Shown: positions 183 to 1,294 of the stretch, in pieces | Position numbering within the stretch: position 1 is the stretch's first letter | Layout: every line of letters starts with the position of its first letter | Assembly (NCBI GenBank): GCA_934754755.1 | Contig: CAKVJS010000038.1 | Span: 1 to 8,808 of the forward strand | DNA: 8,808 nucleotides | From: an uncultured Erysipelotrichales bacterium | GTDB taxonomy: Bacteria; Bacillota_I; Bacilli_A; Erysipelotrichales; Coprobacillaceae | Direction of reading: 5' to 3' | The notes under the pieces: generated by a model | The model's input: only the letters and a program-made list of their open reading frames with translations | What the model was told of the DNA's origin: nothing | The model's database searches: none | Position numbers and translations under genes: made by a program

Positions 183-234
183 CAGTTCAACAATAACACG
201 ATTCAATAATGCATGTATTGTCGCCTCTATTCCA

Positions 235-263
235 TATCAAACACCAAGCTATTAAGATATAAT
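235..263 (+). promoter_or_regulatory. Promoter of peptide gene A
   Basis: A perfect -10 box TATAAT lies at 258-263. The weak -35 candidate TATCAA (235-240) sits 17 bp upstream. Both boxes and the spacing are kept in copy B. The expected start near 270 places the leader stem strand GTGGC right at the RNA 5' end. A second -10-like hexamer, TATACT (264-269), could shift the start by 6 nt. Confidence 0.55.
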
Positions 264-269
264 TATACT

Positions 270-340
270 GTGGCAACTGTTCGGGTGGTTTGTCCTGCAT
301 ATAAAAGCATCCCCTTTTACGGAATCAGCCACAAGGGGAG
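270..340 (+). promoter_or_regulatory. Structured leader that sequesters the SD of peptide A
   Basis: CCCCTT (311-316) pairs with AAGGGG (333-338), which is the core of the SD AAGGGGAG (333-340). The 5' terminal GTGGC (270-274) pairs with GCCAC (328-332), which lies in the loop of that hairpin. Together they can form a pseudoknot or two alternative folds. Copy B keeps both pairings, one of them with a G-U wobble. Hiding the SD in the full-length transcript is a common property of type I toxin mRNAs. Confidence 0.55.
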
Positions 341-355
341 TTAATTTTATTATCG

Positions 356-442
356 ATGGATATCCTGGTGCAAATTGCACAAACTATCTATTATATTTTT
401 AGCACTATCTACATAGTATTAAAAATAAAAAAAGGCGTATAA
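356..442 (+). CDS. Small hydrophobic peptide A, putative type I toxin (28 aa)
   Basis: The ORF starts ATG GAT ATC and stops at TAA 440-442. Residues 3-22 form one continuous hydrophobic segment, ILVQIAQTIYYIFSTIYIVL, followed by KIKKGV, so a single membrane span with a positively charged and probably cytoplasmic C-terminus is expected. The copy B peptide is identical at 18 of the first 25 residues. The other residues are mostly conservative changes, several codons differ only silently, and there is no indel in the shared part although the flanks have indels. That pattern argues for a translated, selected peptide. The SD (333-340) is 15 nt from the ATG, which is long. An in-frame ATT at 344-346 is conserved and would be an unusual alternative start. 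Gene context suggests a membrane-acting toxin controlled by the convergent RNA at 444-536. The family is not recognised; it lacks an Fst-type Pro-x-x-Val-Gly core. Confidence 0.75.
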   Translation: MDILVQIAQTIYYIFSTIYIVLKIKKGV

Positions 443-443
443 A

Positions 444-536
444 GAGAAAAAAGAAGAGATGACGCTCTTCTTTTTTTAGGGTTGATTACCTAATGGATAT
501 CATGCGCATAGATAAACACCTGCAAAGCTTATCTAT
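444..536 (-). ncRNA. Convergent short RNA A, putative antitoxin
   Basis: Transcription should start near 534-536, below a consensus promoter, and stop at the shared terminator, giving about 90 nt. Three hairpins are visible. H1 is AUAGAUAA/UUAUCUAU (529-536 with 508-515) with a 13-nt loop containing GCAGG. H2 is UUAGG/CCUAA with the loop UAAUCAAC, the complement of 481-488. H3 is the terminator. Between H1 and H2, GAUAUCCAU (501-493) is a perfect complement of the peptide A start region (356-364). The H2 loop is complementary at 6 of 8 positions to 340-347, just after the SD. The RNA should therefore pair with the peptide mRNA at the initiation region and again at the terminator, as in par/Fst antitoxins. 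A protein product is unlikely, because the ATG frame stops after seven codons. Confidence 0.7.
447..477. terminator. Bidirectional terminator of module A
   Basis: A 12-bp perfect stem (447-458 with 465-476) encloses the loop ATGACG. Reading plus, the stem ends in a run of seven T (471-477). Reading minus, it ends in TTTTTTCTCTTT. It can therefore end both the peptide mRNA and the convergent short RNA, making their 3' ends complementary over about 30 nt. Confidence 0.8.
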
Positions 537-540
537 ACTC

Positions 541-569
541 TTTATATACTAGCCATCTGTAAATGTCAA
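541..569 (-). promoter_or_regulatory. Promoter of short RNA A
   Basis: Minus strand: -35 TTGACA (569-564), 17-bp spacer, -10 TATAAA (546-541). This is near consensus and clearly stronger than the promoter of the peptide gene, as expected if an unstable antitoxin RNA must be in excess. The spacer motif GGCTAGTA is identical in copy B. Confidence 0.8.
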
Positions 570-790
570 TTAGGCTATACAGTATACATGAACTATGTAT
601 TTCATAAAGTATAATCCATATTACCTCTTATACATATTCAGATATTGATTTGGAATATCATGCCCTCTGTAGGAGAGATAAATACATCCAAGAATATATC
701 ACTAAAAATGGACAACACATCTATAATCAATTAAAAAATCAGCCAATAAAACGATTCAATAATAATACATGAATTATCGCTTCCATTTCA

Positions 791-819
791 TATCAAACAC
801 AAATCTAATAAGATATAAT
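791..819 (+). promoter_or_regulatory. Promoter of peptide gene B
   Basis: The -10 box TATAAT (814-819) lies 17 bp after TATCAA (791-796), identical boxes and spacing to copy A. The expected start is near 826-827, at the leader strand GTGGT. TATACT (820-825) is an alternative -10. Confidence 0.55.
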
Positions 820-826
820 TATACTC

Positions 827-895
827 GTGGTAACTGTTTAGGCGGTTGCCTACATATAAAAGCAATCCCTTTTACAGAATCAGCCACTAGGGGAG
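827..895 (+). promoter_or_regulatory. Structured leader that sequesters the SD of peptide B
   Basis: CCCT (867-870) can pair with AGGG (889-892) inside the SD TAGGGGAG (888-895). GTGGT (827-831) can pair with GCCAC (883-887), the last pair being U-G where copy A has C-G. The SD stem is shorter than in copy A (4 versus 6 bp). The overall pseudoknot-like topology is preserved despite substitutions. Confidence 0.5.
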
Positions 896-910
896 TTGAT
901 TTTATTAAAA

Positions 911-1024
911 ATGAGCATCCTGCTACATCTCGCACAAATCATCTACTATATTTTTAGTACTCTATATATAGCATTAAAAATAAAAAGTATTTGTGCAAGG
1001 AAAAAAGATAAAAAGGGAGAGTGA
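911..1024 (+). CDS. Small hydrophobic peptide B, putative type I toxin (37 aa)
   Basis: The ORF starts ATG AGC ATC CTG and stops at TGA 1022-1024. The conserved core AQ-x-IYYIFST-x-YI-x-LKIK is shared with peptide A, and residues 3-22 form one hydrophobic span. It differs from A by a C-terminal extension SICARKKDKKGE, strongly basic, created because the position of A's stop is open. The extension is read through the 5' arm of the terminator, and the stop lies in the terminator loop. The SD (888-895) is again exactly 15 nt from the ATG. The convergent RNA at 1003-1100 carries matching complementarity to this start region. A membrane-active toxin is inferred from its size, topology and antisense partner. 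No known family is recognised. The basic tail could be neutral drift or could alter potency. Confidence 0.75.
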   Translation: MSILLHLAQIIYYIFSTLYIALKIKSICARKKDKKGE

Positions 1025-1100
1025 CAGCTCTTCCTTTTTTTAGGGTTGATTTCCCAATGAACATCATGCACATAGATAAACTCCTGCAAGACTTATCTAT
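1003..1100 (-). ncRNA. Convergent short RNA B, putative antitoxin
   Basis: It has the same layout as RNA A. H1 AUAGAUAA/UUAUCUAU (1100-1093 with 1079-1072) has a 13-nt loop with GCAGG. H2 is UUGGG/CCUAA, with one G-U pair where copy A has A-U, and its loop is AAAUCAAC. H3 is the terminator. The H2 loop is fully complementary to GTTGATTT (895-902) directly after the SD of peptide B. GAUGUUCAU (1065-1057) pairs with the start region AUGAGCAUC (911-919) with one G-U wobble. Pairing to peptide A mRNA would be interrupted, so each RNA appears matched to its own neighbour. A 39-codon ORF inside it is not conserved in copy A and is not called. Confidence 0.7.
1010..1041. terminator. Bidirectional terminator of module B
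   Basis: The stem is 1010-1021 with 1028-1039, around the loop TGACAG. On the plus RNA all 12 pairs form, one as G-U (1017 with 1032). On the minus RNA the same position is an A-C mismatch. T runs follow on both sides: 1035-1041 on plus, and TTTTTATCTTTTTT on minus. One pair is A-U in copy A and G-C here, a compensatory change. Confidence 0.75.
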
Positions 1101-1106
1101 ACTCCT

Positions 1107-1135
1107 ACTATATACTAGCCATATTTAAATGTCAA
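1107..1135 (-). promoter_or_regulatory. Promoter of short RNA B
   Basis: Minus strand: TTGACA (1135-1130), 17-bp spacer, TATAGT (1112-1107). The -35 box and the spacer core GGCTAGTA match copy A exactly. Around them, 1141-1294 is AT-rich spacer in which I see no gene. Confidence 0.8.
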
Positions 1136-1294
1136 TTAAGAAATATGATATACTTGAACACTATAACCAATATATAATAATCTATATTATTATTAATACT
1201 TTTATGCAATTAAAATTCACTAATATCTCTTATTACAAATTAGAACTGTTGATGCAATTCTTAATTAGTTAATAAGTAATTATTTTGTGAATGA

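Follow-up and report, generated by a model that had tools for sequence, protein, structure and literature searches.

The 8,808-nt stretch analysed here (hereafter the window; contig CAKVJS010000038.1 of an uncultured Erysipelotrichales bacterium) carries rpoB and rpoC on its minus strand, both named from reading of the proteins and the latter confirmed by comparison. Approximately 1.3 kb on the 3' side of rpoC is without any long gene, and two diverged tandem copies of a small module sit there (module A, approximately positions 236–572; module B, approximately 792–1135). From left to right each copy holds a TATAAT box, a 5' untranslated region (UTR), a hydrophobic open reading frame (ORF), an inverted repeat, a putative RNA gene on the minus strand and the promoter of that gene (Table 1). 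An initial annotation had described the two copies as putative type I toxin–antitoxin modules with the layout of par, the locus of plasmid pAD1 that encodes the toxin Fst, and with peptides of an unrecognised family. Both copies, with hydrophobic ORFs of 28 and 37 codons, are present as it described.

Table 1 Features of the two modules (positions in the window)
Positions	Strand	Feature	Basis
191–623	+	Duplicated unit, copy A	Repeat comparison
258–263	+	Module A toxin-side -10 box TATAAT, no good -35; TATACT next at 264–269	Sequence; putative promoter function
270–355	+	Module A 5' UTR, predicted 5'-end helix GUGGC/GCCAC (270–274 with 328–332) and predicted Shine–Dalgarno (SD)/start hairpin	RNAalifold consensus of A and B; putative start
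334–340	+	Module A SD-like AGGGGAG, 15 nt 5' of ATG	Sequence
356–442	+	Module A peptide ORF, 28 aa, MDILVQIAQTIYYIFSTIYIVLKIKKGV	ORF list, alignment, substitution analysis
356–367	+	Module A start-region direct repeat, toxin copy (DRb-like)	Repeat search
447–476	.	Module A shared, potentially bidirectional terminator, 12 pairs	Inverted repeat; listed on minus strand only
493–504	+	Module A start-region direct repeat, copy within antitoxin gene	Repeat search
447–534	-	Module A predicted antitoxin RNA, approximately 88 nt, 5' hairpin AUAGAUAAGC..GUUUAUCUAU	Folding and pairing; putative ends
541–569	-	Module A antitoxin promoter TTGACA-17-TATAAA	Sequence, 11/12
744–1189	+	Duplicated unit, copy B	Repeat comparison
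814–819	+	Module B toxin-side -10 box TATAAT	Sequence
827–910	+	Module B 5' UTR	Folding; putative start
889–895	+	Module B SD-like AGGGGAG, 15 nt 5' of ATG	Sequence
911–1024	+	Module B peptide ORF, 37 aa, MSILLHLAQIIYYIFSTLYIALKIKSICARKKDKKGE; in-frame TTG at 896 gives 42 aa	ORF list, structure prediction
911–922	+	Module B start-region direct repeat, toxin copy	Repeat search
1010–1039	.	Module B shared terminator-like hairpin, 12 pairs with one mismatch; toxin stop codon in loop	Inverted repeat, sequence
1057–1068	+	Module B start-region direct repeat, copy within antitoxin gene	Repeat search
1006–1100	-	Module B predicted antitoxin RNA, approximately 95 nt	Folding and pairing; putative ends
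1107–1135	-	Module B antitoxin promoter TTGACA-17-TATAGT	Sequence, 11/12

The copies are related through direct-repeat blocks of 82% identity over 138 nt, 86% over 79 nt, 75% over 81 nt and 86% over 65 nt, at a spacing of 553–566 nt. Identity between them is 91% in the toxin promoter region (236–269) and 78.7% in the DNA of the ORF core. The flanks of the peptide core had been reported to carry insertions and deletions (indels), and these are found in the sequence upstream of the toxin promoter, the 5' UTR, the ORF tail, the terminator and the antitoxin promoter; the 25-codon core, the RNA body, the toxin promoter and the sequence beyond the antitoxin promoter are free of indels. The twin modules probably arose by tandem duplication and have since diverged, with the result that the strongest pairing of each RNA is with its own message.

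Facing each ORF is a near-consensus promoter for a predicted RNA of approximately 90 nt, and the match of 11 out of 12 positions in both copies agrees with the initial annotation. Our promoter-listing rule picked the facing promoter of module B only, because the -10 box of module A does not end in T; the latter promoter was scored separately. The toxin and RNA genes overlap by approximately 30 nt, essentially the terminator hairpin: the stop codon of module A ends 4 nt before it, and the last codons of module B fall inside it. The proposal that this terminator is shared and bidirectional stands as far as the hairpins are concerned, which are present in both copies. Over 1.5 kb there are 4 terminator-like sites compared with 0.4 in shuffled sequence; only one of them, that of module A on the minus strand, is part of a module, and the hairpin of module B is absent from the terminator-program list for the same 1.5 kb. 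We infer that both hairpins act as terminators on both strands. The repeats described at the peptide start and inside the RNA gene were recovered in both copies, with 11 of 12 positions matching in module A and 10 of 12 in module B. Read on the plus strand, the RNA gene holds an imperfect copy of the toxin start (ATGGATATCCTG versus ATGGATATCATG in module A, ATGAGCATCCTG versus ATGAACATCATG in module B), preceded in both modules by further matches to the SD region.

Because the RNA gene holds this start-region copy, the RNA can pair with the start of the message. The predicted duplex between each RNA and its own message covers the SD, the start codon and the first codons, with energies of -34.8 kcal/mol (A) and -37.5 kcal/mol (B) that were equalled by 7 and 6, respectively, of 1,000 dinucleotide-shuffled RNAs. 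Crosswise, the predicted pairing is weaker (-32.1 and -28.1 kcal/mol). The summed cognate preference of -12.1 kcal/mol was matched by 38 and 41 of 1,000 random placements of the same substitutions, so co-divergence of RNA and message is suggested at approximately the 4% level. Three adjacent toxin changes separate A from B within the start repeat; the RNA gene has matching changes for two of them, and for the third a G–U pair remains. Antitoxin RNA A (445–539) folds far better than its shuffles (z -5.38). In the consensus fold of the A and B messages (RNAalifold) the SD and start codon lie in a hairpin, accompanied by a 5'-end helix, and the individual minimum-energy folds differ from it. Complementary terminator loops would give a second contact, as in pAD1 (PMC7472228).

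In the mechanism that we propose, the hydrophobic peptide of 28 or 37 codons is a likely membrane toxin, and the facing RNA would pair with its message over the SD and start codon and likely block translation. Strong transcription of the antitoxin would silence a toxin message that is itself weakly transcribed and poorly initiated; if the RNA were lost, the peptide could be made and could insert in the membrane. The modules are likely to work like par, and we infer peptide toxicity, transcription of both RNAs and repression of translation through their pairing. The same RNA scheme could also serve non-toxins, such as small membrane proteins or regulators under antisense control (for example, one that modulates an enzyme or transporter). 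The weak expression signals and the long SD spacing leave some room for this, but the loci of par layout described in the cited parts of PMC7472228 and PMC5608710 encode toxic peptides, and tandem modules beside an insertion-sequence remnant would fit the habits of toxin–antitoxin systems. We regard such a non-toxic role as improbable.

The two peptides are identical at 18 of their first 25 aligned residues with no indel, as had been stated and as alignment confirmed. Ten of the 18 nucleotide differences over 26 codons are at third positions (dN, nonsynonymous divergence, 0.18; dS, synonymous divergence, 0.84). Read in either of the other frames, the same substitutions give amino-acid changes typical of random placement, with no comparable saving. 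The substitution pattern lends support to coding, short of proof. In each peptide a basic tail comes after a 19-residue hydrophobic segment (mean hydropathy 1.62 and 1.68), and the peptide of module B is predicted to form a single helix over residues 3–35 (mean pLDDT 86).

The peptides had been suggested to form a family separate from Fst, and the comparisons support this. On a profile of 12 Fst peptides of the family they score 0.7 and 1.0 bits, values that shuffles of their own residues equalled in 43 and 18 of 300 cases, whereas left-out Fst peptides score 33.4 to 62.0 bits and pass in 12 of 12 cases. Profile–profile comparison of the window peptides with Fst aligned six columns at 1.6% probability. 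Pfam and NCBIfam searches gave no Fst match for either peptide; at E ≤ 10 the NCBIfam Fst model recovers four of the seven Fst peptides in our alignment A7 (best E 9.4e-6), with L216 under the cut-off, and in this alignment L225, L226 and L227 are cut one codon off at the start. Trp, expected between the membrane helix and the charged C-terminus, is absent from both peptides altogether, a criterion that is not absolute because Fst of pAD1 itself has Val at that place (PMC7472228). The P/D/S/TxxxG(C) motif, carried by the 'majority' of Fst-superfamily toxins (PMC7472228), is also missing, and the hydrophobic segments of the two peptides contain no Gly. By these tests the window peptides are not recognisable as members of the Fst/Ldr superfamily. 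As the peptide is not recognisably Fst, the Fst control scheme would here govern another peptide.

As a yardstick for the layout we used Fst/par loci of the nearest bacterial family. The Pfam Fst model gave nothing above its cut-off in the 43 genomes of this family searched. Its best weak match, L216 (1471–1560) in Candidatus Stoquefichus massiliensis AP9 (G003, which also carries L016), is a straightforward Fst peptide that has Trp, PxxxG and a charged tail and lies in a par layout. With the L216 peptide as query, 37 places were found in 20 of the 43 genomes at E ≤ 0.01, and 26 of the 43 genomes had matches at E ≤ 0.5. An Fst-like tandem pair 352 nt apart is present in G035 (C6). The peptide at L322:8322, matched weakly at E 0.099, is Fst-like with a changed motif, and L319:1618 may be another variant. 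Geometry was measured in 14 of the 20 loci fetched (L216, L225–L243), leaving out L228, L237, L238 and L240 as peptide duplicates and L232 and L234, which have no ATG start; the 14 are not independent because they hold only 12 distinct peptides, several of them near-identical. The terminator of all 14 loci has 12–14 pairs (in one case with a mismatch), and its position relative to the start ranges from +98 to +133; each locus also has a repeat, spaced 138–177, at or close to the start codon. Their repeat scores were equalled by 7 of 200 shuffles for L231, 4 for L225, 1 for L242 and none for the other eleven. The window terminators lie at +91 (A) and +99 (B) and the repeats at spacings of 137 and 146, values near or marginally below the bottom of these ranges, and the duplex energies of the window modules are within the range of the 14 loci. 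Because the Fst/par loci show similar spacing, we take the window layout to be that of par, with close geometry, which supports the par/Fst-like layout first proposed.

More broadly, the modules share with par of pAD1 and with chromosomal Fst/par (Fst/Ldr superfamily, PF13955/NF033608) the sequence features by which par membership is judged, namely convergent promoters with a shared terminator and direct repeats at the SD/start and in the RNA gene. They also share a hydrophobic peptide of approximately 30 aa with a charged tail; the 5' UTR structure around the SD described for par (PMC7472228) is predicted in the consensus fold of the two messages, from which the individual folds differ. They differ from them in the peptide, which fails the Fst profile and is without Trp and PxxxG, in a predicted 5' UTR of 84–86 nt with 15 nt between SD and ATG, and in a predicted RNA of approximately 90 nt compared with approximately 40 nt for RNA II of pAD1 (PMC7472228). 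The gap between AGGGGAG and ATG (334–356, 889–911) is clearly larger than in those Fst loci whose leaders were inspected. It could be argued that the peptides are true Fst toxins diverged beyond recognition, in ordinary Fst/par loci, given the close layout and geometry, the similar length, the basic tail and a short YYI string in common. The profile scores, the lack of Trp and PxxxG and the lack of Pfam and NCBIfam matches argue otherwise, and we consider this unlikely. In the Lpt locus of Lactobacillus rhamnosus plasmids, too, the layout is par-like and the 29-aa peptide is hardly connected to Fst by ordinary searches; HHpred ties Lpt to Fst (PMC5608710), whereas no comparison here does so for the window peptides.

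Convergent small peptide and antisense RNA genes also make up txpA/RatA and the RCd-type systems of C. difficile, in which the overlap is extensive and, in C. difficile, the peptides have 50–53 aa (PMC4147584, PMC6563280). A system of this type, with an antisense RNA over the 3' part of the toxin message that triggers decay, would account for the convergent, overlapping 3' ends and for the stop codon of module B within the terminator. However, the overlap in the window is essentially the terminator rather than antisense cover of the 3' coding part, pairing is predicted at the start region, and the separate start-region repeat is a par feature. This makes a txpA/RatA- or C. difficile-type system very unlikely.

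No relative of the 42-aa frame of module B was recognised in 5.8 billion proteins, and a two-peptide profile yielded none that we accepted in 43 genomes of the family, 315 of the order, a class sample of 395 and a phylum sample of 195. These sets overlap and contain one genome per species, none close to the window species, so restriction to an unsampled genus fits as well as rarity. The search tool can see short peptides, since one 29-aa Fst query found relatives at 33–58% identity. Profile matches given as loci were read or scanned. The match at E 2.0e-5 (G100) lies on the opposite strand over the start of an apparent cysteine synthase gene, in a frame with a stop and without a start; that at E 2.5e-4 is out of frame in an apparent ABC ATPase, and that at E 3.9e-4 adjoins an apparent helicase gene. 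The remaining matches that were read have no module layout at the match. L210, from one of the 315 genomes (G086, E 0.0046), encodes a 30-aa peptide with a similar core behind an 11/12 promoter; it was rejected, as it heads an apparent small operon and no direct repeat was found. This apparent three-gene operon (L210:1436–1997) has a palindromic promoter and encodes the 30-aa peptide, a 54-aa membrane peptide and a 68-aa putative DNA-binding regulator. The 30-aa peptide has weak similarity to the window peptides.

No plasmid or phage match was found by blastn with 183–1205, and tblastn, run with peptide B only, gave none in plasmids and one phage match at E 9. Four scans of viral contigs gave 13 pattern matches, none with a peptide resembling those of the window, 79 pattern stretches, none confirmed, and otherwise no match. 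In seven relatives the best blastn match to 849–1135 was 34 nt at 85% (E 5.1e-4), and a motif search of 37 loci found no similar peptide. Rfam returned no family at gathering score over 1–1500 (ten weak matches), and PADLOC gave no match. Weak family matches (PF11044, 0.011; PF13153, 0.077; NF010232, 0.012; phrog_16020, 0.013) do not reach the curated cut-off, where one exists, and were regarded as chance matches. A model of the toxin-side RNA matched in 77 of the 315 genomes at E ≤ 0.1 and was set aside; of the five best matches inspected, the top one lies in an apparent oxidoreductase gene. The antitoxin RNA model matched 24 places in 21 of the 315 genomes at E ≤ 0.05. The open-licence papers listed by our literature searches showed neither a type I system from this clade nor a par layout around a peptide other than Fst.

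We consider it probable, at roughly 0.77, that each module is a par-type (pAD1-like) type I toxin–antitoxin layout, that is, par-type RNA control of an undescribed peptide family, and it is predicted to work so. A number of points weigh against this. The strongest doubt, in our view, concerns the peptide frame: the search for relatives that the initial annotation had called for was run, no homologue was accepted anywhere searched, and the frame is therefore backed by the two window copies only. Its coding signal is weak, in that, when the 16 core substitutions (25 codons) were placed at random, 253 of 5,000 trials had no stop and no more amino-acid changes than observed. On the expression side, the toxin promoter is a TATAAT box without a clear -35, and the 15-nt SD–ATG gap is longer than usual in both copies. 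The terminator position of +91 and the repeat spacing of 137 in module A fall just under the Fst range. The module B repeat was missed by one of two repeat searches. Taken by itself, the repeat score of module A is ordinary (equalled by 18 of 200 shuffles, compared with 0 of 200 for module B), and 64 of 826 control segments reach a score of 19; scores of 22 and 26 were reached by 19 and 6 segments, and the score alone proves little. The fold of antitoxin RNA B is little better than those of its shuffles (z -1.81 and -1.59), two-sided changes are found in 1 of the 28 pairs of the 5' UTR consensus and 0 of the 34 of the antitoxin, the sequences used for pairing start 3–5 nt before the predicted RNA starts, and a cognate preference as large as that observed has a chance level of about 4%. 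Finally, the evidence consists throughout of sequence and prediction. The AT-rich DNA, the modest single repeat scores and the modest coding signal would also suit a duplicated intergenic stretch with a fortuitous ORF, hairpins and promoters. Several features nevertheless coincide in both copies near par geometry, although the copies are not independent, and we rate chance as the least probable of the explanations.

Scanning for the layout itself gave further candidate peptides. The scan looked for a short hydrophobic ORF, a terminator, a start repeat and a facing promoter, with thresholds chosen after seeing the window, and it recovered both window modules. In 787 kb from 43 Bacillota rpoC loci there were ten ORF-plus-terminator candidates, and L043 alone has both a repeat score of at least 19 and a promoter of at least 9. 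This locus (L043:501–572, a Clostridia metagenome-assembled genome) encodes a 24-aa hydrophobic peptide with a terminator, a facing 11/12 promoter and a long repeat of the SD/start region (score 39). Six of the 24 places matched by the antitoxin RNA model are loci for the peptide MEYLIILFLILYLIKS and its variants (hereafter MEYLI; L166–L170 and L174, six genomes of the family). They resemble the window modules in the bacterial family, the short hydrophobic peptide, the downstream terminator and, in four of the six loci, a repeat of the start-codon region on its far side; they differ in a length of 19–21 aa and in a sequence unlike that of the window peptides. Pfam and NCBIfam gave no match for the two of the six members that were searched (both of at least 20 residues). 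Because scores of 19–22 are not rare, the MEYLI case rests on recurrence across genomes and that of L043 on its very high score. A scan of 80 stretches (1.6 Mb, five genomes) gave 209 ORF-plus-terminator candidates, 18 distinct ones with a repeat score of at least 17 near the start. Six of the eight with a score of at least 21 are Fst-like, all previously found by peptide search, and no convincing further peptide family was seen in these stretches; since some were chosen to include known Fst sites, the scan is no unbiased census.

As for the chromosomal setting, the window rpoC is closest to those of Thomasclavelia, Massilimicrobiota, Candidatus Stoquefichus and Beduini (78–82% amino-acid identity), and Erysipelotrichaceae is the NCBI family of the two that were looked up, which fits the Erysipelotrichia named in the initial annotation. 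Among the 315 genomes of the order its DNA-level match is 79% at most. In nine relatives' loci rpsL follows rpoC (L014–L020, L156, L163), in seven of them directly, with one gene between the two in L017 and three in L020 (gene identity by reading). The window differs from these in that at least 1.3 kb with an insertion-sequence end and the modules intervenes (1–1333). A frame at 2–97 resembles an ISNCY-family transposase C-terminus, sharing 68% identity over 19 residues with plasmid copies that carry this annotation (E 0.06), and because of it an insertion sequence probably borders the modules. L154 (G008) has no rpsL within 1.4 kb and has a frame that reads like an ISNCY transposase.

Type I toxins have mostly been sought by peptide similarity. 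The window peptides are too short and too different for this and were found through the layout of their RNAs. If the proposed reading is true, par-type control is not tied to Fst. We tentatively suggest, as a possibility that we hold with less than even confidence, that the par cassette is a reusable chassis in which the RNA–RNA switch persists while the membrane peptide is swapped: Fst and the IYYIFST (window), MEYLI and L043 peptides, unrelated in sequence, would stand under the same scheme in one family and its neighbours, and searches by peptide sequence would miss all but Fst. A search by layout could then reveal further families in a clade for which the open-licence papers listed showed no type I system, and the twin modules would be a natural test of how sister antitoxin RNAs gain specificity.

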